NCBI GenBank assembly: GCA_902602105.1
Contig: CACKPP010000007.1
Span: 1 to 23,554 of the forward strand
Origin: an uncultured Pelagibacteraceae bacterium
Lineage (GTDB): Bacteria; Pseudomonadota; Alphaproteobacteria; Pelagibacterales; Pelagibacteraceae
Reading direction: 5' to 3'
Length of the DNA: 23,554 nucleotides
Positions 1 through 11,203 of the stretch are shown piece by piece. The notes under the pieces are model-generated. The model saw nothing but the letters and a program-made list of their open reading frames with translations. It had not been told where the DNA came from and made no database searches. Positions within the stretch are counted from its first letter, which is position 1; each line of letters begins with the position of its first letter. The position numbers and the translations under genes were made by a program.

Positions 1-573
1 GGATAGTATCAACAAAATTACAAAACCAAATAAACCAGTAAATGCATTTGTCAAACTAATATCTAAGTCCCTCAACTGTCTTGAAAAAACTTGAGAAAAA
101 GCAAAAGCTAATGCCATTAAACTTGCAAAGAATAATCCTAAAAAATTATCGACTAATTTTGGATCAAAAAATATTATTAATACACCAATAAAAGCGGAAA
201 ATATAAAAAACCATTTTTTTGGACTTATGTTTTCATTTAACATGAATGCGCTAGCAAGTATTCCAAAAGGTATTGCTAGTTGAGAACCTACAATTATAGG
301 TGAGATAATAGAGGAATAGTAAAGCGCAAGTGTCATAAACACATAAACCATCACACCCATTGAGATTGAAAAAGCTAACAATGAAGGCATATATTTCTTT
401 TCTGGTATTTTAAATTTCCAAAAAGGAATTAATATCAGCAATACTAATCCCATTCTTAGTGATGCCATAAGAATTGGAGGAACAGAGTCATTTAAAACCA
501 ATTTGGTAAAAGGAAATGCGCTCCCGTGAGCCATTGCAATAAAAAGTAAGATTAATAAATGTTTTAAAGGCAA
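1..573 (-). CDS. EamA/DMT-family permease, 3' part cut by window edge
   Basis: This is an inner-membrane drug/metabolite-transporter (EamA-type) permease, of which 191 codons are visible. The hydrophobic segments fit the first EamA repeat. TM1 covers about residues 4-22 and contains the AHGSAFPFTK stretch typical of the family, and later helices follow around SISMGVMVYVFMTLALYY and IIVGSQLAIPFGILAS. I chose a TTG start at 573-571 because the next in-frame ATG (534-532) would remove half of TM1. The TTG lies 3 bases after the stop of the aldehyde dehydrogenase, so it is the last visible gene of the leftward operon. It may export or import a metabolite of that pathway, but the substrate cannot be read from sequence. 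The C-terminal half is outside the window. The family call is fairly sure. Confidence 0.85.
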   Translation of the reverse strand, partial: MPLKHLLILLFIAMAHGSAFPFTKLVLNDSVPPILMASLRMGLVLLILIPFWKFKIPEKKYMPSLLAFSISMGVMVYVFMTLALYYSSIISPIIVGSQLAIPFGILASAFMLNENISPKKWFFIFSAFIGVLIIFFDPKLVDNFLGLFFASLMALAFAFSQVFSRQLRDLDISLTNAFTGLFGFVILLILS

Positions 574-576
574 GTT

Positions 577-2058
577 CTAACCCATTGTAAATGGATCAGT
601 CATCGGTTTATCTGATGAATTATACCATGTGGTCTTAATTCTTGTGTATTCTTTAATAGACTCAATACCAGCTTCTTTACCATAACCACTATCTTTAATA
701 CCACCAAAAGGAGCCATTGGAGAGATTAGTCGGTAAGTATTTATGAAAACTATACCAGCGCGTATAGCTTCAGATACTCTTAAGCCACGCGCAAAGTTAG
801 AAGTATAAACTCCAGATGAAAGTCCATATTTATTATCATTCATTTTATTTATTACCTCATCTTCTTTATCAAACTTCATAACTGATAATATTGGACCAAA
901 TAATTCATTTTCTGCAACAGGAAGGTTGTGATTTTTACATTCTATAATTGTTGCTGGAAAGTAGTAACCTTTATTTGAAACAGAAGATCTTTTCCCACCA
1001 CATCTAATCTTTCCACCTTGTTCAATAGTAGCTTTTATATTTTTTTCAATATTTTCTAATTGTTTAAAACTATTTAATGGTCCCATTTGAGTATCTTTTT
1101 CCATTGGGCCACCTAATTTTATTTTTTCAGCTTTAGAAATTAATTTTTTTAAAAATTCGTCATAAATATTAGATTGTAAATAAAGTCTAGAACCTGCAAT
1201 GCAACTTTGACCACTTGCTCCAAAAATTCCAGCAGTTATACCATTCAAAGCATTTTCTTGATCAGCGTCATCAAATACCACAACTGGACTTTTACCACCA
1301 AGTTCTAAGCTTACTTGAGATAAATTTTCTGCAGAGTTTTTGACAATATTTTTTGCAGTTTCTGGCCCACCAGTGAATGCTATTCTCTCTACAAGGTTGT
1401 GCGTAGTCAAAGCTTTTCCACAAGGCTCACCTAAACCAGTAATGATATTAATAACTCCTTTTGGTAATCCAGCTTTATCTATTAATCTTGCAAACTCTAA
1501 AAGAGTTACAGGTGCAAGTTCAGAAGCTTTAATAACAACTGTATTCCCCATAGCAAGAGCTGGAGCAAGTTTGACGGCTGTTAATAACATTTGAGAATTC
1601 CAAGGAATAATTGCAGCCACAACACCTATAGGAATTCTTGTTGTTGTAACTTGCATATCTGGTTTATCTATTGGGACAACAGTTCCTTCTACTTTGTCAG
1701 CTAAACCTGCAAAGTAATCATAATATTCTGCAATATAATTAGCTTGGGTTTTCGTTTCTCTATAAAGCTTACCAGTATCAATAGTTTCTATTTTTCCAAG
1801 ATGTTCTGCATTAGCTCTTAGTTGATCAGCAATTAATTTTAAATACTTTGCTCTTTCTCTTGGATGAAGTGTAGACCAATTATTTTCAAAAGCTTTTTGA
1901 GCTGATTGAACAGCTTTGTCTACATCCTTTTCATTTGCTTCAGGAACAGTTGCCCAAACTTCATTATTTTCAGGATTTAATGTTTCAATTTTTTTTCCAG
2001 AGGATGAATCTACCCATTCACCATTAATGTACATTTTAAAATTTTGAATTTTTGACAT
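577..2058 (-). CDS. NAD(P)-dependent aldehyde dehydrogenase (operon enzyme)
   Basis: This is a full-length ALDH-superfamily enzyme (493 aa, normal for the family) that oxidises an aldehyde to a carboxylate in the cytoplasm. The oxyanion-hole Asn is N154 in IPWN, the general-base Glu is E252 in LELGGKSP, and the catalytic Cys is C286 in GQSCIAGSR. A C-terminal PFGGIKDSGYGKEAG motif is typical. It resembles betaine-aldehyde and hydroxymuconic/succinic-semialdehyde type enzymes, but substrate cannot be assigned. Its ATG directly follows the hydrolase stop with no spacer, and the EamA permease starts 3 bases after it, so translation is probably coupled. In the context of a flavin monooxygenase and a hydrolase, it would plausibly oxidise the aldehyde made on ring opening or a semialdehyde released later (inference). 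It is clearly different from the second ALDH at 15829. Confidence 0.95.
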   Translation of the reverse strand: MSKIQNFKMYINGEWVDSSSGKKIETLNPENNEVWATVPEANEKDVDKAVQSAQKAFENNWSTLHPRERAKYLKLIADQLRANAEHLGKIETIDTGKLYRETKTQANYIAEYYDYFAGLADKVEGTVVPIDKPDMQVTTTRIPIGVVAAIIPWNSQMLLTAVKLAPALAMGNTVVIKASELAPVTLLEFARLIDKAGLPKGVINIITGLGEPCGKALTTHNLVERIAFTGGPETAKNIVKNSAENLSQVSLELGGKSPVVVFDDADQENALNGITAGIFGASGQSCIAGSRLYLQSNIYDEFLKKLISKAEKIKLGGPMEKDTQMGPLNSFKQLENIEKNIKATIEQGGKIRCGGKRSSVSNKGYYFPATIIECKNHNLPVAENELFGPILSVMKFDKEDEVINKMNDNKYGLSSGVYTSNFARGLRVSEAIRAGIVFINTYRLISPMAPFGGIKDSGYGKEAGIESIKEYTRIKTTWYNSSDKPMTDPFTMG

Positions 2059-2841
2059 TTAATTATTAATAAAATTTTTAATTTTCATATTAACATCATC
2101 TGCACATTCTATACTACAAAGATGTTTTCCATTTTTAATTTCAATATAAGTAGAATTAGCAAGGTCTTTTACTAATTCTTTAGACATTGCTGGAGTAGAA
2201 CCAATATCATCTGAACCAGTCATCACCAAAGTTTTTCGGTCTATCTTTTTTATAGCTTCAAAATCATCATAATGATTAGCAAATAACTCATAAGCTTTAA
2301 GAAAGTTTTTATGATCTTCTGGTTCTTTATTTAAGATTTTCATAAACAAATCATAAGTTTTTGGATTATCCTCAAGGTATTTGTCACTAAACCATCTTTT
2401 TAAAGCTTGTTTAGATATTGGTTTATTCAATTTTGCTTGATTATATCTATCTAACACAAGTGATCTCTCTTCATCTGATCTTTTATAAGTAGTGCCAATT
2501 AATATAAGTTTTTCTACTTTTTTTTTAAAATGAGATGAAAAATCCAATGCAATCAAAGAACCTAAAGAAAAACCTATAAGATTTATTTTCTCAACTCCCA
2601 AATGATCTAAAATTTCTAAAAGTTGATTAGAAAAATCTTTAAGACTAAGTTTGCCTTTATCACATGGTGTTTTTCCGTGTCCTAATAAATCATAAGTTAG
2701 AGTTGAATATTCATTGAAGTAAATGATTTGATTATCCCACATTTGATGATCAAGACCTACTCCATGGATAAATACAATAGGTAAAGAATTTTTTTTATTA
2801 AAAGAATAATAATTTTGATTTGGATCAAAATTTTGGGACAT
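2059..2841 (-). CDS. alpha/beta hydrolase (enol-lactonase / amidohydrolase-like)
   Basis: This is a 260-aa alpha/beta-hydrolase-fold enzyme with a complete catalytic set. FIHGVGLD near residue 24 forms the oxyanion region, S92 in GFSLG is the nucleophile, D211 or D212 in MTGSDD is the acid, and H240 in NGKH is the base. Overall it is closest in style to PcaD-like 3-oxoadipate enol-lactonases, a group that also includes hydrolases of amidomethylene-succinate intermediates in vitamin B6 and trigonelline breakdown. There is no signal peptide, so it is cytoplasmic. It starts 4 bases after the DUF1185 gene and its stop abuts the ALDH start. In this operon it plausibly cleaves an ester, lactone or enamide formed after oxygenation (inference). 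The fold is certain and the substrate unknown. Confidence 0.92.
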   Translation of the reverse strand: MSQNFDPNQNYYSFNKKNSLPIVFIHGVGLDHQMWDNQIIYFNEYSTLTYDLLGHGKTPCDKGKLSLKDFSNQLLEILDHLGVEKINLIGFSLGSLIALDFSSHFKKKVEKLILIGTTYKRSDEERSLVLDRYNQAKLNKPISKQALKRWFSDKYLEDNPKTYDLFMKILNKEPEDHKNFLKAYELFANHYDDFEAIKKIDRKTLVMTGSDDIGSTPAMSKELVKDLANSTYIEIKNGKHLCSIECADDVNMKIKNFINN

Positions 2842-2845
2842 TAGA

Positions 2846-3433
2846 TTATTTGGGATCTAATCCCATTTCTTTCATATCCTGATAACGGTCTCCAGTTCTA
2901 GCATGAGCTCTCCCACTTGATGCACCACCAATTGCAATTACAATTTCATCATCAAATGGTGCATCATGAATAGTAAATTCATGAGTCAAATAATAGGGTC
3001 TTAAACCAGAGTCTGTTTTATGCATCATAGGAATAGATATTTTAGACCCTGCAGGCCCTCTTGTATTTGTAAAACTTAAATATGAAGTACCACCAACAGC
3101 ATCTCTAAATTTATTTCCAAATCTTAAAGTATGAATAAAAGCTGATGCATGTTCTATTTCACCATTCAATCCTACAGTGCCAGCTTTTCCATAAGCTAAA
3201 ATTTTTTCAGGTGATCCAATTTCTTTAATTAATTCTGGTACTAAAATGTCACCAAGTTTTGGAGCTAAATCTAAAATAATTGGTTTTAAGTCTTCAACAA
3301 AACCTTGTCCGGTCCAAGGGTTTTTAAAAACAGCTGCTACTGAAACCAGTAAAACTGGTTCCTTAGCTTCTTTTCCACCTTCAATAAAAGTTTTATCTAC
3401 AAACTTTGTAAACTTCCTTAATTCAAGTTTCAC
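2846..3433 (-). CDS. DUF1185 / 'amino acid synthesis' (PF06684) family protein
   Basis: The 195-aa protein matches the family named AA_synth (formerly DUF1185). It has an N-terminal LRKFTKFVDKTFIEGG start, a VEDL motif, the YGKAGTVGLNGEIEHASAF block around residues 81-99, then the VGG segment and RGPAGSKISIPMMHK block, and a C-terminal IAIGGASSGRAHAR stretch. The family name comes from annotation history; I know of no firmly assigned reaction. The start is GTG (3433-3431), which shares its G with the TAG stop of the monooxygenase (TAGTG), so the two are probably translationally coupled. Members commonly sit beside luciferase-like monooxygenases and hydrolases in catabolic clusters (recollection, not checked), so a hydrolytic or isomerising step on the oxygenated product is a reasonable guess. 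There is no signal peptide. Confidence 0.88.
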   Translation of the reverse strand: MKLELRKFTKFVDKTFIEGGKEAKEPVLLVSVAAVFKNPWTGQGFVEDLKPIILDLAPKLGDILVPELIKEIGSPEKILAYGKAGTVGLNGEIEHASAFIHTLRFGNKFRDAVGGTSYLSFTNTRGPAGSKISIPMMHKTDSGLRPYYLTHEFTIHDAPFDDEIVIAIGGASSGRAHARTGDRYQDMKEMGLDPK

Positions 3434-4599
3434 TAACTAGCTTTCTCTATATCGTCGTTATCAAAGTTAATTTTAGGTATTACTTCATCATTAAACAGCT
3501 TTATACTTCTCATGCAAGCTTTATGGTCTATACCTGGAAAGTTTGACCAAACTTGTAAGTTTTGTAAGTTTAATTCTGATTTTAATTCATTAATTTTATT
3601 GACTACATATTCAGGGGTACCAAATAATAAATTTCTTTTATGTAAGAAATCATAGTTTAGAAGATCTAATTTATGCTTTGTTTCTGGTAACTCTTCACCT
3701 GGATCCATATGATTGCCTAAACCTCTCCAATGGCAAACCCATCTCATATAATTTATAATGTGCTCTCCAGCTAATTTTTCTGCTTCTTCCATTGTTTCTG
3801 CAACAAACATATCTCTAACTAAAGAAATACCCTCTCCTAATGGAACATCTCTATTTTCAGCTTTTGATTTTGCATCTCTATATATCTCAAATCTTTTCTT
3901 TAAGGCTTTAACAGTAGGTATCCACATTATAGTATTAAGACCATTTTGTGCTGCCCATTCTATTGACCTTGCACCATCTACTACCTGCCAAATTGGAGGA
4001 TGAGGTGCTTGTTTTGGTTTTGGAACAATACTTATTTTTTTAATTTCATTTGTCGTTGTATCTAAAAATTTTTCACTTGGTGGACTCATATCATGTTGCC
4101 ATACAAAATTTGGTGACGGATAAGTATAAAATTCACCCTTATGATTAAAAAATTCTTCGGTCCAAGCTTTTTTCATTATAGTTAAAGTTTCTTCAAATAA
4201 TCTAAAGTTTTTAGCCTGATCTTTAAGATCAGCCTCTTTATTCATATTAATTGCTTCCCTTCCATAAATACCTCTACCAATTCCAACCTCAACTCTTCCA
4301 TTGGATAACTGATCTAATAAAGCAATGTCTTCTGCTAATCTTATTGGGTTATGGAAAGTAATAACATTACAAGCCTGTCCTATTCTAATTTGTTTAGTTC
4401 TTGCAGCTGCATCAACACCCATCATTAAAGGGTTTGTGCAAGACTCCATTCCTTCATGATTAAAGTGATGCTCTGTGTACCAAATAGAGTTCCAATTATT
4501 TTTATCACAATAAGTAGTGATCTCCTTAGTTTCATCTAATAATTGTTTATAGGGCTTATGATCCCAGTTTGTGGTATTGCAAAAGTAACCAAATTTCAT
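3433..4599 (-). CDS. LLM-class (luciferase-like) flavin-dependent monooxygenase
   Basis: This is a 388-aa member of the bacterial luciferase-like monooxygenase family, which uses reduced FMN and O2. Typical landmarks are WYTEHHFNHEG (residues 40-50), the NPLMM and IRIGQACNVITFHNPIRLAE block (about 71-90), and LLDQLSNGRVEVGIGRG (about 95-110). The whole barrel appears present. It is the first gene of the leftward operon and has the clearest Shine-Dalgarno there, AGGAGG at 4610-4605, five bases before the ATG. It would catalyse the first oxygenation of the pathway, possibly opening an N-heterocyclic ring as TgnB does on trigonelline (inference). Such two-component enzymes need a flavin reductase, and none is visible here, so reduced flavin must come from elsewhere. 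The family is certain and the substrate unknown. Confidence 0.95.
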   Translation of the reverse strand: MKFGYFCNTTNWDHKPYKQLLDETKEITTYCDKNNWNSIWYTEHHFNHEGMESCTNPLMMGVDAAARTKQIRIGQACNVITFHNPIRLAEDIALLDQLSNGRVEVGIGRGIYGREAINMNKEADLKDQAKNFRLFEETLTIMKKAWTEEFFNHKGEFYTYPSPNFVWQHDMSPPSEKFLDTTTNEIKKISIVPKPKQAPHPPIWQVVDGARSIEWAAQNGLNTIMWIPTVKALKKRFEIYRDAKSKAENRDVPLGEGISLVRDMFVAETMEEAEKLAGEHIINYMRWVCHWRGLGNHMDPGEELPETKHKLDLLNYDFLHKRNLLFGTPEYVVNKINELKSELNLQNLQVWSNFPGIDHKACMRSIKLFNDEVIPKINFDNDDIEKAS

Positions 4600-4739: not shown

Positions 4740-5483
4740 ATGAAATTAACCAAGATAGAACCAAAATATATAAAAAAGCATAATCCGAGGGTAGGGTTAA
4801 TTACATTAGCTAGCGACTTTAGAATCGAAAAAGATTTTAACAATGTAATTTATGGAAAGGACATAGATTTATATTGCAATAGAATTAAATGTTATAATCC
4901 TTTAACAAATGAAAAATTAAAAAAAATGGCAGATGATATTCCAAAAGTTACCGAGGATATTTTGCCAGATCAGCAATTGGATTGTGTTGCCTATGGATGT
5001 ACCTCAGGAACAATTGCTGCAGGATATCAATCAATTCATGATAAAGTTAACCTAGCAAAACCAAACACTAAAGTTACGACACCAATAACATCAGCAATAA
5101 ATGCACTGAAAAGTTTAAAAATAAAAAGATTGTCAATTTTTACTCCCTATACAGATGAGATTAATCAATCAGTAATTAATTATTTCAAAAAAGAAAATAT
5201 AGAAATTGATGAACTTTCTTATTTTGATATAGCCTCAGATTTAGATATTGGTAAAGTTGATCCACAATATGTATTTGAAACACTTGCAAAAATAGATTTA
5301 TCAAAAAGCGACGCTTTATTTGTTTCTTGTACTGCATTACCGGTCCTTTCAGTAATTAATGAATTAGAAAAAAAAATAAATAAAGTTGTTTTATCAAGCA
5401 ACCAAACTTTAATTTGGGATACACTTAAGGAAATTAATTTTAATAATAAAGTTGAAGGTTTTGGTGAATTATTTAATAATTAA
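4740..5483 (+). CDS. Asp/Glu racemase / maleate isomerase family protein (EutA-like)
   Basis: This 247-aa protein belongs to the Asp/Glu/hydantoin racemase superfamily, in the branch of maleate cis-trans isomerases, arylmalonate decarboxylases and EutA. The two active-site cysteines of the fold are present: C87 in YGCTSGTIAAG and C197 in FVSCTALPVL. Both are expected for isomerases and racemases; arylmalonate decarboxylase keeps only one. It may isomerise a cis-unsaturated diacid or a small amino acid derivative in the cytoplasm. It is the first gene of the rightward operon and ends 3 bases before the M24 hydrolase gene. In ectoine-degrading bacteria, EutA (same superfamily) and EutD (M24 fold) occur in one cluster, so this pairing is notable. 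The superfamily is sure; the reaction is open. Confidence 0.88.
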   Translation: MKLTKIEPKYIKKHNPRVGLITLASDFRIEKDFNNVIYGKDIDLYCNRIKCYNPLTNEKLKKMADDIPKVTEDILPDQQLDCVAYGCTSGTIAAGYQSIHDKVNLAKPNTKVTTPITSAINALKSLKIKRLSIFTPYTDEINQSVINYFKKENIEIDELSYFDIASDLDIGKVDPQYVFETLAKIDLSKSDALFVSCTALPVLSVINELEKKINKVVLSSNQTLIWDTLKEINFNNKVEGFGELFNN

Positions 5484-5486
5484 TTT

Positions 5487-6656
5487 ATGAATTTTACTAA
5501 CGAAGAATACAAATCAAGATTAAAAAAAGTTCAAGCTTCTATGCAAGAAAAAGGCATTGAGCTTTTAATCTCCCAAGATCCATCTAATATGAATTATCTA
5601 ACTGGTTATGATGCTTGGTCATTTTATTATGCCCAATGTGCAATAGTACATGTTAATGCTGACGAGCCGATTTGTTTTGTTAGAAATCAAGATGCTGGTG
5701 GTGCATATATTAAAACTTATTTAAAGAATGAAAATATAATTAAGTATCATGAGAAATATATCCATACTTGGCCTCTACATCCTTACGATGCACTTGTAGA
5801 TCTTATTAAAGAAAGAAAATGGGACAAACTTTCTATTGGACTAGAAATGGACAGCCATTATTTCACAGCTTATTGTTATAAAAAAATCAAACAAGGTTTA
5901 CCTAATGCTAAAGTTTTAGATTGTGAAAGATTAGTTAATTGGGTGAGAGTTGTTAAATCAGATGCTGAAATAAAGTTTATGAAAGCGGCTGCACAAATTA
6001 CTGAATTAGGAATGAAAAAAGCTTTTGATGCTATAAATCCTGGAGTAAGACAGTGCGATGCAGTTTCAGAAATCTATACTACATTAATAAAAGGAACGTC
6101 TGAATTTGGTGGCGATTATTCATCTATAGTTCCAATGATTCCAACAGGAAAAGGTACATCAGCATCACACTTAACATGGTCAGAAGATAAATTTGTAGAA
6201 GGAGAGGCTACAATTATTGAATTATCAGGAGTAAATAAAAAATATCATTGTCCAATGGCTAGAACAGTTTTACTTGGTAAACCTGATCAAAAGAAAATTG
6301 ACACAATGAAGAAAACAAATGAAGCACTTCAAGCTGGTATTGATTTAGTCAAAGCGGGCAATACTGCTGATGATGTTGCCCAAGCTTTTTGGAAAATATT
6401 AGATAAATATGGAATTGAAAAAACTTCAAGAACTGGATATTCCATTGGTATTGGCTATCCACCTGACTGGGGAGAACACACTTTAAATATATCAAAAAGT
6501 GATATGACCGTGTTACAACCTAACGTTACTTTTCATATGATTGCAGTAATGCAATTTGGAAATTGGGGAGTAGAAGCCTCTGAAGCAATTAGAGTTACTG
6601 ATAAAGGTTATGAATTATTTTGTAATTTTTCTAAAGAACTTCATATTAAAAGCTAA
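5487..6656 (+). CDS. M24-fold hydrolase, ectoine hydrolase (DoeA/EutD)-like
   Basis: The 389-aa protein has the two-domain pita-bread layout of M24 peptidases and creatinase: an N-terminal creatinase-like domain (about 1-150) and a catalytic domain (about 155-385). Phrases such as NYLTGYDAWSFYYAQ, LVNWVRVVKSDAE and GYPPDWGEHT recall ectoine hydrolases DoeA/EutD. The usual two metal-binding Asp of M24 metallopeptidases are not there: the positions read E245 (IIELSG) and P256 (YHCPMART). His228 and a late Glu (E366 in SEAIRVT) remain. This resembles the metal-free hydrolases of small cyclic or guanidino substrates, not a peptidase. The start ATG is 3 bases after the upstream stop. No deacetylase of the DoeB/EutE type is next to it, so true ectoine use is not shown. 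The substrate is probably a cyclic amidine, amide or related N-compound (inference). Confidence 0.88.
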   Translation: MNFTNEEYKSRLKKVQASMQEKGIELLISQDPSNMNYLTGYDAWSFYYAQCAIVHVNADEPICFVRNQDAGGAYIKTYLKNENIIKYHEKYIHTWPLHPYDALVDLIKERKWDKLSIGLEMDSHYFTAYCYKKIKQGLPNAKVLDCERLVNWVRVVKSDAEIKFMKAAAQITELGMKKAFDAINPGVRQCDAVSEIYTTLIKGTSEFGGDYSSIVPMIPTGKGTSASHLTWSEDKFVEGEATIIELSGVNKKYHCPMARTVLLGKPDQKKIDTMKKTNEALQAGIDLVKAGNTADDVAQAFWKILDKYGIEKTSRTGYSIGIGYPPDWGEHTLNISKSDMTVLQPNVTFHMIAVMQFGNWGVEASEAIRVTDKGYELFCNFSKELHIKS

Positions 6657-6708
6657 TTATTAATGGTTGATATTTATTCATACAAATGTTTTAAAGTTAC
6701 CTAAAATT

Positions 6709-7794
6709 ATGGCCTTAAAAAAAGATTTCGTAAAATTTGATAAAGTTGATAAAAGCTATGACGGTAAAGTTTTAGTAGTCAAAGATCTTCAACTAGATAT
6801 TGAAGAAGGTGAATTTGTTACAATGTTAGGACCCTCTGGTTCTGGTAAAACAACTTGTCTTATGATGTTAGCAGGTTTTGAAACTCCTACTAATGGTGAA
6901 ATATATTTAGATGGAAATGCTATCTCAAGTATTCCACCTCATAAAAGAGGTATTGGAATGGTTTTTCAAAACTATGCATTATTTCCTCACATGACTGTCT
7001 ATGAAAATTTAGCTTTTCCATTAAGGGTAAGAAAAATTCCAAAGGACGAAGCTGATAAAAAAATTGATAAAGCATTATCAATGGTATCACTACAAGGTTT
7101 TGCTCAAAGAATGCCAGGTCAGTTATCAGGTGGACAACAACAAAGAGTTGCTGTTGCAAGATCATTAGTGTTTGATCCACAGCTAGTATTAATGGATGAA
7201 CCTCTTGGAGCTTTAGATAAAAATTTAAGAGAAAGTATGCAGTACGAGATTAAACACATTCACGAAAGTATTGGAGTAACTGTTGTTTATGTAACTCATG
7301 ATCAAAGTGAAGCATTAACTATGTCAAACCGTATAGCAGTGTTCAACGATGGAAAAGTACAACAGCTTTCAAGTCCTGATGAGCTTTATGAAAAACCAGT
7401 TAATTCTTTTGTAGCGGAGTTTATTGGAGAAAATAATACTTTTGCAGGTGAAGTTTCAGATATTTCAGGAGGAAAGTGTAAAGTTAAGTTAGCTAATGCA
7501 GAAATTATGGCAAATCCAATTTCAGTAAAAGGCAAAGGAGATAAAACGACAGTATCATTGAGACCAGAAAGAGCTTTAATCAACCCAAGTGATAAGATGG
7601 ATAATTTACATAATGGAAAAATTGAGGAAGTTATCTATCATGGAGATCACACTAGAGTAAGAATTAATCTCCTTGGGAATTCAGAGTTTATTTTAAAAGT
7701 GCCAAACAGCTCATCCAATCTTGACATTAAACTAGGCAATGAAATTAAGATTGGTTGGAATAGTGAAGACGCTCGGGCTTTAGACCCAAAATAA
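6709..7794 (+). CDS. potA: ABC transporter ATP-binding protein, PotA-like
   Basis: This is the cytoplasmic ATPase of a spermidine/putrescine-type importer. All motifs are intact: Walker A GPSGSGKTT (41-49), Q-loop Q87 in VFQNYALFPHMTV, signature LSGGQ (139-143), Walker B LVLMDEP (159-165, catalytic E164) and switch H197 in VTHD. The C-terminal part from about residue 245 forms a TOBE-like regulatory domain. I start it at the ATG at 6709 (361 aa); a frame-open extension to a TTG at 6667 adds 14 residues unlike the family. It follows the M24 gene by 52 bases and precedes the binding-protein gene by 102 bases. The family is fixed by the motifs; the transported substrate, which could be another cationic or zwitterionic N-compound, is not. 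Confidence 0.95.
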   Translation: MALKKDFVKFDKVDKSYDGKVLVVKDLQLDIEEGEFVTMLGPSGSGKTTCLMMLAGFETPTNGEIYLDGNAISSIPPHKRGIGMVFQNYALFPHMTVYENLAFPLRVRKIPKDEADKKIDKALSMVSLQGFAQRMPGQLSGGQQQRVAVARSLVFDPQLVLMDEPLGALDKNLRESMQYEIKHIHESIGVTVVYVTHDQSEALTMSNRIAVFNDGKVQQLSSPDELYEKPVNSFVAEFIGENNTFAGEVSDISGGKCKVKLANAEIMANPISVKGKGDKTTVSLRPERALINPSDKMDNLHNGKIEEVIYHGDHTRVRINLLGNSEFILKVPNSSSNLDIKLGNEIKIGWNSEDARALDPK

Positions 7795-7832
7795 ACATCA
7801 ATTAAATCTTGTATAAATAACAAAAAGGGCTG

Positions 7833-7861
7833 TTGACTCTCATTATCGATCTTGCTGTAAT
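7833..7861 (+). promoter_or_regulatory. sigma70-type promoter for the binding-protein gene
   Basis: TTGACT (7833-7838) and TGTAAT (7856-7861) are separated by exactly 17 bases, five of six matches to each consensus box. Transcription would start near 7868, giving a leader of about 29 bases that includes the GGAGG ribosome site. This would let the substrate-binding protein be made in excess over the rest of the operon. It is seen in sequence; activity is not shown. Confidence 0.65.
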
Positions 7862-7887
7862 CCACTTTTATAAAAAAACGTTTAAAC

Positions 7888-7892
7888 GGAGG
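7888..7892 (+). promoter_or_regulatory. strong ribosome binding site of the binding-protein gene
   Basis: GGAGG lies four bases before the ATG at 7897. Most other starts in this window have little or no Shine-Dalgarno sequence, so this site fits high translation of the binding protein and fixes its start. Confidence 0.8.
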
Positions 7893-7896
7893 AAAA

Positions 7897-9018
7897 ATGA
7901 AAACAATTAGTAAATTATTACTAGCCATTTCTTTTGCTATCTCTGTAACTACTTCAGCATTTGCAGTAACTGCAGTGTCTTGGGGTGGCGCTTACACAGA
8001 GTCTCAAAAGTTAGGTTATGGTGATCCTACTGGTAAAGCCCTTGGTATAACTATCAACTGGGTTGACTATTCAGGTGGATTATCTGAGATCAAAGCACAA
8101 AAAGAAGCTGGCAAAATTACGTGGGATATAATCGACGTATTTGCTATGGACACTATCAATGGTTGCGATGAAGGATTATTTGTTGAATTTGATTTTGACA
8201 AAGACTTCCCACCTGCACCAGATGGAACTCCTGCAAGTAAAGACTTCTTTACTTCAATGCCAAGTAAATGTGCTGTAGGAAATATTTTATATTCTTGGAA
8301 CTACGCTTATAACACTCAAAATGTTAAAGGTACTCCAAAGACTATCAAAGATTTCTTTAACACAAAAAAATTCCCTGGAAAAAGAGCTATCTACAAAAGC
8401 GCTTTAACTAACTTAGAGATCGCGTTAGCTGCAGATGGTATTAAACCAGGAAAAGGTGGAGCAAAAATCTACAAAGCTTTAAACACTGAGAAAGGTGTTG
8501 AAAGAGCTATGAACAAGATCAAAGAATTATGTACAGATCCAAAAGGCGGATGTGTATTTTGGTCTGCAGGTGCTCAACCACCAGAATTATTAGTTTCAGG
8601 TGAAGTTGTAATGGCTACAGGTTGGAATGGTAGATTCTTCAATGCAGAAGTTGGAGAAGGTGCACCAATCAAACAAGTATGGGATGGACAAGGTCTTGAC
8701 TACGAGTACTTCGTACAAGTTAAGGGTGGACCAAACGATGCTAATGGTATGGCCAAAAAAGCTTTAGCTATGATGACTAGTACAGAGATGTTAGCAGGAA
8801 GTGCGAAATACATCGCATACGCTCCTTGGAGAAAATCTTCTATAGCGATTATGGAAGCAGGGGAGCCTTGGTATAAAGATGGTAAAACGAATATGGTACC
8901 ACAAATGCCAACTGCACCACAAAACACTAAAAACTATTTCTTAGTTGACCCAATTTTCTGGGCTGACAATGGAACAGAGCTTGGTGAGAAGTGGGAAGCT
9001 ATGAAAGCTGGTCTATAA
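7897..9018 (+). CDS. potD: periplasmic substrate-binding protein, PotD/PotF-like
   Basis: This is the periplasmic binding component (373 aa) of the polyamine-type ABC importer. A clear Sec signal peptide covers residues 1-23, with a positively charged start, a hydrophobic core and cleavage after SAFA. The mature protein begins with VTAVSWGGAYTES, a start typical of the COG0687 spermidine/putrescine-binding family, and keeps a C-terminal YFLVDPIFWADNGTELGEKW end. The ligand could be a polyamine, but family members also bind other cationic or zwitterionic compounds, and the neighbouring catabolic genes argue for a pathway-specific ligand (inference). It has its own promoter and strong ribosome site upstream and a terminator downstream, so it is probably expressed above the permeases. 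This fits the known abundance of binding proteins in oligotrophic marine bacteria. Confidence 0.93.
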   Translation: MKTISKLLLAISFAISVTTSAFAVTAVSWGGAYTESQKLGYGDPTGKALGITINWVDYSGGLSEIKAQKEAGKITWDIIDVFAMDTINGCDEGLFVEFDFDKDFPPAPDGTPASKDFFTSMPSKCAVGNILYSWNYAYNTQNVKGTPKTIKDFFNTKKFPGKRAIYKSALTNLEIALAADGIKPGKGGAKIYKALNTEKGVERAMNKIKELCTDPKGGCVFWSAGAQPPELLVSGEVVMATGWNGRFFNAEVGEGAPIKQVWDGQGLDYEYFVQVKGGPNDANGMAKKALAMMTSTEMLAGSAKYIAYAPWRKSSIAIMEAGEPWYKDGKTNMVPQMPTAPQNTKNYFLVDPIFWADNGTELGEKWEAMKAGL

Positions 9019-9019
9019 T

Positions 9020-9039
9020 TTAAGTTTTATTAAACTTAA
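9020..9039 (+). other. AT-rich hairpin just after potD stop
   Basis: TTAAGTTT and AAACTTAA form an 8-base inverted repeat around a four-base loop, starting two bases after the potD stop. No run of T follows, so it is unlikely to terminate transcription. It might stabilise the 3' end of the potD message, or be chance. Confidence 0.35.
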
Positions 9040-9055
9040 TTATATAATATAATTT

Positions 9056-9086
9056 AAGGGCGGTTATTTAATAACCGCCCTTTTTT
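9056..9086 (+). terminator. rho-independent terminator between potD and potB
   Basis: A perfect 12-base stem (9056-9067 paired with 9071-9082, core GGGCGGTTAT/ATAACCGCCC) with a three-base loop is followed by a run of six T (9081-9086). It is the only strong GC-rich hairpin I saw in the window. It ends only three bases before the potB start codon, so potB, potC and the following gene should depend on read-through or on another promoter. Two overlapping TATAAT boxes (9043-9048 and 9048-9053) just upstream lack a good -35. Confidence 0.9.
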
Positions 9087-9089
9087 ATT

Positions 9090-10343
9090 ATGAGCTCAGA
9101 AACAAAACAAATTTTAACGACTGATGGAATTCCTTTAGAGGTAAGTCTAAAGAAAGCTGAAAGAAGAAATAAAATAAAAGCTTTCTTACTAGTTGCTCCA
9201 TTACTATTATTTTTAATTATCACGTATGTGTTTCCTATTGGTGACATGCTAATGAGAAGCGTTGATGATAAAATGGTAACTGAAATGCTTCCCAAAACAT
9301 TTAAAGCAATGGAAAAGTGGGATGGAAAAGAATTACCAGAGGAGGAAGTGTTTGAGGCTTTTTATTTAGATTTTAGACAGTTGGTTGATGAAAAACGTGA
9401 AGGAAAACTATCTACACAACTTAATTACACAAAGAATGGGTTCAAAAGTATTATTAAAAAATTAAGAAGAAAATCAAAAAATTTTGAAGAGGGAAATTAT
9501 AAAGAACAAATCATGGCTGTTCACAAAAGATGGGCAGATGTTGAATATTGGAAAGCTATTAAACGAAGAGCTCCTGCAATTACTGGTCAGAAATATTTAA
9601 AGGGTATGGACATGTATAAAAATGAGAATGGAGAAATAGTTAGTGTTGAAGAAGATAGGAGAATTCATAGAATTTTATGGCTTAGAACTTTAGAAATTGC
9701 GTTTTTTGTAACATTGTTCTGCTTTTTAATGGCCTATCCAATTGCTCATTTGTTAGCCACTCTACCTATGAAGTATAGTAACTTACTAATGATCTGTGTC
9801 TTGCTTCCTTTTTGGACGTCATTACTTGTAAGAACTGCCAGTTGGATGATCTTGTTGCAACAACAAGGGGTCGTAAATGATTTCTTTGTCGGAATAGGTT
9901 TAGTTGCTGACGATGCAAGACCAGAGATGATGTATAATAAAACTGGAACATACGTAGCAATGACACAAATTTTACTGCCGTTTATGGTTTTACCTCTTTA
10001 CAGTGTTATGAAAACTATTTCTCCAAGTTTAATGAGAGCTGGAAAATCTTTAGGCGGAACACCTTTTGTGGCTTTTTGGAAGGTTTACTTTCCTTTAACA
10101 ATACCAGGTATTGGAGCTGGTTGTTTGTTATGCTTTATATTGGCCATTGGTTATTATATTACTCCTGCATTAGTTGGAGGTGCCTCAGGTACTTTAATTA
10201 GTAACCAAATAGCATTTCATATGAAAAGTACTCTTGATTGGAGCTTTGCATCAGCAATGGGATTAATGTTGTTAAGTGGAGTTTTAGTAATTTATTGGCT
10301 TTATAACAAAGTAGTTGGAATAGATAATATTAAATTAGGATAA
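9090..10343 (+). CDS. potB: ABC transporter permease, PotB-like, with large periplasmic insert
   Basis: This is one of two membrane subunits of the importer. Six helices are expected at about 30-50, 199-219, 231-252, 288-308, 341-362 and 386-406. The ATPase-contact EAA loop reads MRAGKSLGG near residues 315-323 and runs to PLTIPG at 335-340. At 417 aa it is much longer than a typical PotB of about 275-300 aa. The excess lies between TM1 and TM2 (about 51-198), a highly charged segment expected in the periplasm. The start is three bases after the T-run of a terminator and has no Shine-Dalgarno sequence. potC follows after 5 bases. The family is sure; the insert is of unknown function. Confidence 0.93.
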   Translation: MSSETKQILTTDGIPLEVSLKKAERRNKIKAFLLVAPLLLFLIITYVFPIGDMLMRSVDDKMVTEMLPKTFKAMEKWDGKELPEEEVFEAFYLDFRQLVDEKREGKLSTQLNYTKNGFKSIIKKLRRKSKNFEEGNYKEQIMAVHKRWADVEYWKAIKRRAPAITGQKYLKGMDMYKNENGEIVSVEEDRRIHRILWLRTLEIAFFVTLFCFLMAYPIAHLLATLPMKYSNLLMICVLLPFWTSLLVRTASWMILLQQQGVVNDFFVGIGLVADDARPEMMYNKTGTYVAMTQILLPFMVLPLYSVMKTISPSLMRAGKSLGGTPFVAFWKVYFPLTIPGIGAGCLLCFILAIGYYITPALVGGASGTLISNQIAFHMKSTLDWSFASAMGLMLLSGVLVIYWLYNKVVGIDNIKLG

Positions 10344-10348
10344 TTAAA

Positions 10349-11203
10349 ATGGCTTTACCAAAATATACAGAACCACATTACAGAATTTGGCATTATGTAT
10401 ATTTGACAATTTGTGGAGCTGTTTTCTTTTTTTTAATTGCACCGTTATTTGTAATATTTCCATTATCATTTAATGCAGAAGAGTTTTTAAGTTTTTCTGA
10501 TGGAATGAAGAATTTAGATCCAGATGCTTTTTCATTGAGATGGTATAAAGATATGATTTATGGAACAAAAAACCCATGGGGTTTAGCAGCTAAAAATAGT
10601 TTTATCATTGCAATTTTTGCAACCATAGGATCTGTATTGCTTGGAACTGTTGCTGCATTAGGATTAAGCAGCAGACATATGCCATATAAGGGCATTATCA
10701 TGGCAATACTAATCTCTCCAATGATTGTTCCTTTAATTATTTCTGGTGTAGCAATATTTTTCTTTATGGCAAAAGCTGGTTTAGCAGCTACACACACAGG
10801 AATAGTTCTTGCACATATTATTTTAGGGACACCATTTGTTGTAATTACTGTTACAGCTACACTATCAGGATTTGATCATAGCGTAACAAGAGCTGCAGCA
10901 AGCCTTGGAAGTAATCCAGTAAACACTTTTATGAAAATTACATTACCATTAATACTACCTGGTGTTATTTCTGGTGGATTATTTGCATTTGTAACATCAT
11001 TTGATGAAGTTGTGGTTGTTTTATTTTTAGCTGGCCTTGAAAATACAACTATTCCAATTCAGATGTGGACGGGTTTAAGAGAACAGTTAAGTCCAACTAT
11101 TCTTGCAGTTGCAACTTGTCTAATTATTTTGTCCACATTAATATTAGTTACTGCTGAGCTTTTAAGAAGAAGATCTGAGAGACTCAGAGGAATAAACCGA
11201 TAG
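10349..11203 (+). CDS. potC: ABC transporter permease, PotC-like
   Basis: This is the second membrane subunit of the importer (284 aa, normal for PotC). A first helix lies at about 15-40, then a periplasmic stretch containing SLRWYKDM, which is typical of PotC/PotI proteins. Further helices follow, and the EAA loop near 180-205 reads TRAAASLGS and TLPLILPG. It lies 5 bases after potB, and the next gene (FadN-like) begins 14 bases after its stop, so the three are probably one message. Together with PotA, PotB and PotD it makes a complete importer. Confidence 0.95.
   Translation: MALPKYTEPHYRIWHYVYLTICGAVFFFLIAPLFVIFPLSFNAEEFLSFSDGMKNLDPDAFSLRWYKDMIYGTKNPWGLAAKNSFIIAIFATIGSVLLGTVAALGLSSRHMPYKGIIMAILISPMIVPLIISGVAIFFFMAKAGLAATHTGIVLAHIILGTPFVVITVTATLSGFDHSVTRAAASLGSNPVNTFMKITLPLILPGVISGGLFAFVTSFDEVVVVLFLAGLENTTIPIQMWTGLREQLSPTILAVATCLIILSTLILVTAELLRRRSERLRGINR

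Follow-up and report, generated by a model that had tools for sequence, protein, structure and literature searches.

A conserved four-gene operon of SAR11 bacteria resembling the trigonelline operon, with a different oxygenase and a possibly related N-heterocyclic substrate

In the trigonelline (tgn) pathway, the oxygenase TgnB reportedly opens the pyridinium ring, the aldehyde dehydrogenase TgnC is said to oxidise the product, and the hydrolase TgnD to release an amine and formate. Here, we compare the tgn operon and its relatives with a four-gene operon found on a 23,554-nucleotide stretch of DNA (contig CACKPP010000007.1, assembly GCA_902602105.1; hereafter the window) from an uncultured member of the Pelagibacteraceae, and thus of the SAR11 group, whose members rank with the most abundant cells of the ocean. 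The window operon encodes a luciferase-like flavin-dependent monooxygenase (LLM), a DUF1185 protein, an alpha/beta hydrolase, and an aldehyde dehydrogenase (ALDH). From sequence comparison we propose, with a probability of about 0.5, that it is a tgn-like catabolic operon with a swapped oxygenase, whose substrate would be a carboxylated N-heterocycle related to trigonelline.

On plasmids, relatives of the DUF1185 protein (52–60% identity) lie in a conserved operon composed of GntR, DUF1185, hydrolase, flavin reductase, LLM, and ALDH genes, often accompanied by NIPSNAP or DUF1330 and an ABC or NCS1 transporter. The hosts are Rhizobium, Leisingera, Chimaeribacter, Shinella, Pantoea, Burkholderia, Thioclava, Marivivens, Paraburkholderia, and Acinetobacter; Acidiphilium has the same gene order with an insertion sequence at the position of the LLM. 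The LLM of an Acinetobacter junii plasmid is 90–92% identical to three proteins (P0121–P0123) that NCBI names "flavin-dependent trigonelline monooxygenase oxygenase component", and we take the neighbouring genes to be TgnA, TgnC, TgnD, TgnE, and TgnF on the basis of gene kind and position. Plasmid operons of Mesorhizobium and Agrobacterium possess the same kinds of genes (flavin reductase, ALDH, LLM, hydrolase, and CMD, with DUF1185).

The DUF1185 protein HcdD of a coumarin pathway is described as homologous to TgnF, which is said to stimulate TgnE, though a like effect could not be demonstrated for HcdD (PMC7913881). Since tgn operons carry DUF1185 and TgnF has been discussed in this way, the family is a known, if poorly understood, member of the tgn system.

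The window operon and its conservation in SAR11

The genes concerned, together with one further codirectional open reading frame (ORF), are as follows:

3433-4599, minus strand: LLM flavin-dependent monooxygenase, proposed ring-opening oxygenase, distinct from TgnB (388 amino acids; PF00296, E 8.1e-45)
2846-3433, minus strand: DUF1185 protein, TgnF-like (195 amino acids, GTG start; PF06684, E 1.4e-63)
2059-2841, minus strand: PcaD-like alpha/beta hydrolase, proposed N-acyl/enamide cleaver (260 amino acids; PF00561, E 2.8e-24)
577-2058, minus strand: TgnC-like ALDH of the tgn-operon clade (493 amino acids; PF00171, E 4.4e-164)
1-573, minus strand: EamA-type transporter, incomplete as it runs off the window, possible operon member (PF00892)

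The four-gene operon is real. The ORFs and Pfam matches bear out the gene kinds and tight packing given in a preliminary description of this DNA, and the DUF1185 protein passes the Pfam cut-off of PF06684 by a wide margin (214 bits vs 27). The spacings need one correction: 4 bases between DUF1185 and hydrolase and 0 between hydrolase and ALDH stand, while the single base reported between LLM and DUF1185 is a 1-base overlap rather than a gap. That description also omitted the EamA ORF, which begins 3 bases past the ALDH stop and directly follows the ALDH in 15 of the 72 complete SAR11 loci described below (counted from the locus table). An Rfam scan of the window gave zero matches, and neither promoter-like sites (16 vs 22.9 in shuffles) nor terminator-like sites (5 vs 1.8, all within genes) were used as evidence.

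Conservation was assessed in the best 80 of 578 confirmed candidates from a scan of contigs of named genomes, all with an LLM identity of at least 82%. All four genes occur in the same order in 72 of the 80 loci, with gaps of mostly 15 bases or less, and in the remaining eight the contig ends ahead of the missing gene; in 54 of the 72 complete loci the LLM–DUF1185 gap is −1. This arrangement is far beyond chance. By title, 77 loci are from Pelagibacteraceae, Pelagibacterales, or Pelagibacter and three (L127, L130, and L132) merely from Alphaproteobacteria, and therefore no named distant carrier was seen among these best 80. The source within SAR11 is clear, as the window LLM is 98–99% identical to those of named Pelagibacteraceae single-cell genomes (L071–L078) and 99% identical to that of the nearest genome, G001. 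One carrier, L110, is titled Lake Baikal, so the substrate need not be solely marine.

Among 147 Pelagibacterales genomes, the LLM has 51 matches (50 strong, that of G101 weak) and DUF1185 is present in 48, the two occurring together in 47 of 51 carriers. The exceptions (G040, G042, and G052 with LLM only; G028 with DUF1185 only) are all draft genomes; in the three whose coordinates were checked (G040, G042, and G028), the genes sit at the edge of a contig. Within the genus to which the nearest genome belongs, the LLM set and the DUF1185 set are the same 35 genomes. Because the two sets nearly coincide, the operon is a variable trait of about one third of the sampled Pelagibacterales genomes that is inherited as a unit.

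In wider samplings, 10 of 385 genomes of the same class, besides G001, had the LLM type with an E value of 1e-60 or better; in a 398-genome sample of the phylum, at 1e-45, it was found only in G001 and G397, both of that class. The nearest plasmid LLMs are 28% (L036) and 34% (L037) identical to that of the window and adjoin a metallo-beta-lactamase-fold hydrolase and a 3,4-dihydroxy-2-butanone-4-phosphate synthase.

Across the 69 SAR11 loci with four full-length proteins, identity to the window proteins averages 93% for DUF1185, 91% for the LLM, and 85% for the ALDH; the hydrolase, at 68%, is diverging much faster than its partners. In five of 13 larger SAR11 loci (L060, L061, L067, L068, and L069), a protein of 562–567 amino acids stands between LLM and DUF1185; that of L061 is a thiamine-diphosphate enzyme scoring well below the cut-offs for sulfoacetaldehyde acetyltransferase (404 vs 620 bits) and acetolactate synthase (389 vs 538). 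The window operon has no such insert.

Comparison with the tgn operon and related modules

The tgn operon of Acinetobacter and its relatives, like that of the window, brings together DUF1185, hydrolase, LLM, and ALDH. For the ALDH, the window and tgn-operon enzymes (50–51% identity) form a single clade with support of 100/99. The window DUF1185 protein is 54–58% identical to members from the tgn and Mesorhizobium operons, and all 31 LLM-linked DUF1185 sequences fall on one side of a branch, although its support is weak (SH-aLRT 74); K83, H95, R110, E163, and R179 are invariant across the 76 aligned members of the family. In the hydrolase, ten residues (the triad S92, D212, and H240; the arginines R121, R132, and R149; and W150, Y184, S215, and M219) are identical in 17 of 17 operon hydrolases and in that of L184, while each of four control hydrolases lacks at least part of this set. 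The closest solved sequence, the enol-lactonase PcaD (2xua), aligns with part of this residue set.

The oxygenase is where the two systems part. An identity of 24–27% to the TgnB type and a separate clade in the tree rule out that the window LLM is TgnB. Nor does it group with SsuD or RutA, from which it is separated by a branch with support of 100/99 (long branches are noted here); the SsuD models score 30.4 and 26.7 bits against cut-offs of 518 and 510. Having neither the tgn type of LLM nor a flavin reductase gene beside it, the window operon is not counted as a tgn operon.

The Mesorhizobium operon shows a different mixture: its DUF1185 protein and hydrolase are 58% and 32% identical to those of the window, but its LLM (27% identity) stands beside TgnB in the tree and its ALDH lies outside the clade of window and tgn enzymes. 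The combination recurs, with the LLM type of the window, in two loci from other families. In L051, a flavin reductase, a window-type LLM (56%), DUF1185 (62%), and a hydrolase (32%) occur together with an ALDH that shares 63% identity with the tgn type, beside genes for a Rieske oxygenase and for a DAO oxidoreductase; L052 has two window-type LLMs (44–45%), DUF1185 (58%), a hydrolase, and an ALDH with 62% identity to the tgn type, with a distant thiamine-diphosphate enzyme nearby.

The preliminary description had likened three of the proteins to TgnB, TgnC, and TgnD. The likeness to TgnC is upheld by the ALDH clade and that to TgnB falls with the LLM tree; for TgnD, the tgn-type residue set agrees, while the identity is low and the tree unresolved. 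The comparable oxygenase–hydrolase–dehydrogenase route that it suggested is partly supported: the ALDH clade, the weak DUF1185 grouping, and the common hydrolase residues speak for it, and the separate clade of the LLM speaks against an oxygenase of the TgnB type. Grouping of the LLM with sulfonate or nitrilotriacetate monooxygenases, which it had named as an outcome that would overturn its proposal, was not seen: apart from the 100/99 branch, the best-scoring model reaches 98.6 bits, against 30.4 for SsuD and 28.6 for the NtaA/DmoA model TIGR03860 (cut-off 279.7), the tree being without NtaA/DmoA members.

Substrate and proposed chemistry

As the oxygenase and hydrolase have changed while the ALDH and DUF1185 have been kept, a compound chemically related to trigonelline is a more probable substrate than trigonelline. 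One could argue instead that the operon degrades trigonelline by way of a non-orthologous LLM with the substrate of TgnB; the ALDH and DUF1185 groupings and the common hydrolase residues would agree with this, but an oxygenase of so low an identity in another clade and a strongly diverged hydrolase make it unlikely.

For a related carboxylated N-heterocycle, we envisage the following route. The LLM, supplied with reduced FMN by a reductase whose gene lies outside the operon, would oxygenate and open the heteroaromatic ring, with an N-formyl (or N-acyl) enamine and an aldehyde or lactol as products. The ALDH, to judge by its clade, would turn the aldehyde into a dicarboxylate, and the PcaD-like hydrolase would cut the N-acyl or enamide bond to yield formate, an amine, and an acid of central metabolism, its conserved arginines perhaps holding the carboxylates. 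As a guess, DUF1185 may assist after the ring has been opened and before hydrolysis, for instance by opening a lactol or isomerising a double bond.

Several points should be set against this proposal. The tgn anchor of the comparison is the NCBI name of P0121–P0123, the A. baylyi genes being outside the comparison, which is a weak point. The window operon is not flanked by genes for a tgn-type GntR, NCS1 permease, or succinate-semialdehyde dehydrogenase, and the operon itself includes no flavin reductase gene. PF01613 flavin reductases have zero matches in all genomes of the nearest genus; PF03358 is present in all 12 genomes tested, six of them with and six without the operon, and PF00881 in one of the 12. 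The hydrolase is only 21–28% identical to its tgn-operon counterparts, and the hydrolase tree is unresolved. Five of the seven non-SAR11 loci read closely (L053–L057) have the LLM with DUF1185 and hydrolase undetected in the stretch, so the LLM is not always bound to the module. As a tracer of methylamine use, the GmaS-like model TIGR03105 was set aside: it scores above its cut-off in 108 of the 147 genomes, and its presence does not follow the operon in the list as read by eye.

The solved structures nearest the window LLM are also a point on this side, as they include luciferases and Baeyer–Villiger enzymes of non-nitrogen compounds. RslO1, bacterial luciferase, and 3,6-diketocamphane monooxygenase, which have the closest folds, share 18–26% identity with the window LLM and have other operon partners. 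Even so, these folds would suit an LLM that acts as a type II Baeyer–Villiger-like oxygenase on a non-nitrogen cyclic ketone or similar compound, after which the hydrolase would open the lactone and the ALDH oxidise the product; the resemblance of the hydrolase to PcaD and the DUF1185 protein of the coumarin (lactone) pathway (PMC7913881) fit as well. However, TgnB of the tgn operon also scores best on the same luciferase-like model, which means that this branch includes an N-ring opener, and the relatives of DUF1185 and the ALDH are located in N-ring operons. We consider a Baeyer–Villiger route improbable.

Returning to a carboxylated N-heterocycle, a marine pyridinium betaine, as suggested in the preliminary description, is a possible substrate, and homarine is our first guess. 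Its appeal is that a 2-carboxylated ring could yield a 2-oxo acid, which might suit the thiamine-diphosphate enzyme of some relatives. TgnA/TgnB have been argued to be unlikely to act on homarine (PMC8269262). Taken further, a new LLM clade might let SAR11 use homarine or another 2-carboxylated pyridinium by way of a tgn-type finishing module, with the thiamine-diphosphate enzyme of some relatives handling the 2-oxo acid and the DUF1185 family opening or isomerising intermediates of N-heteroaromatic breakdown; as a joint claim, this is tentative and, on balance, doubtful.

Genes of homarine catabolism are the subject of Ferrer-Gonzalez et al. 2026, known to us from its citation in PMC13390433, where the citing passage has an Mgd enzyme taking part; these marine bacteria possibly share the substrate class. 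If that paper describes the window operon, then the operon is already known. Judged from titles, the beginnings of abstracts, and some passages of text, the accessible literature on homarine in connection with operons and SAR11, and on SAR11 and trigonelline, apparently holds nothing on this operon, subscription literature being mostly beyond reach.

Neighbouring genes and the DUF1185 family

The following genes lie upstream of the operon:

4740-11203, divergent from the operon: EutA-like and EutD-like genes and a Pot-type ABC transporter

The window EutA-like and EutD-like proteins score below the cut-offs of the NCBI ectoine-enzyme models (187 of 318 and 473 of 613 bits). One might expect the operon to act with these genes on an ectoine-like or polyamine-like solute, given that EutA occurs in 46 of the 80 operon loci and that in L129 and L130 the genes immediately preceding the operon, in the same orientation, encode a Pot-type ABC transporter and a DAO oxidoreductase. 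The two gene sets are divergent in the window, however, and the glutamine-synthetase-like, ALDH, and Fe-ADH genes downstream in L129 and L130 suggest a separate polyamine locus. An EutD relative is found in 114 of the 147 Pelagibacterales genomes, whether the operon is present or not, which makes the substrate of the EutA/EutD/Pot genes a question separate from that of the operon; a functional link was set aside on this ground and is very unlikely.

DUF1185 deserves attention in its own right. Pfam's name for PF06684, "Amino acid synthesis", goes back to a 2010 structure paper and was based on genome context and a chorismate-mutase-like fold (PMC2954203). The preliminary description held that the role of the DUF1185 protein would be new, which is half right: its place in the tgn operon was already on record, its chemistry was not. 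PF06684 occurs in 41 of 299 Pseudomonadota genomes. From 58 matches listed we retained 52 loci, having dropped the SAR11 one and one fragment and merged four tandem partners, and these were counted without correction for relatedness. Ring-catabolism genes, mostly 6-hydroxynicotinate reductase, accompany DUF1185 in 32 of the 52. A tgn- or Mesorhizobium-type LLM is present in 13 loci, and 6-hydroxynicotinate reductase with UPF0280 in 19, of which 17 also have a molybdenum hydroxylase. Two more (L184 and L186) have hydrolase, ALDH, and flavin reductase, with CMD and GntR also present and no LLM found within their 12.5 kb stretches; the other 18 loci show none of these combinations. The 6-hydroxynicotinate reductase/UPF0280 pattern is also seen on the named plasmids L173 and L174, and DUF1185 sometimes occurs in tandem pairs.

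This pattern would replace a misleading family name by a testable role. Should the SAR11 operon open homarine or another pyridinium betaine, a compound abundant in phytoplankton would gain a named sink, together with a gene marker for it.

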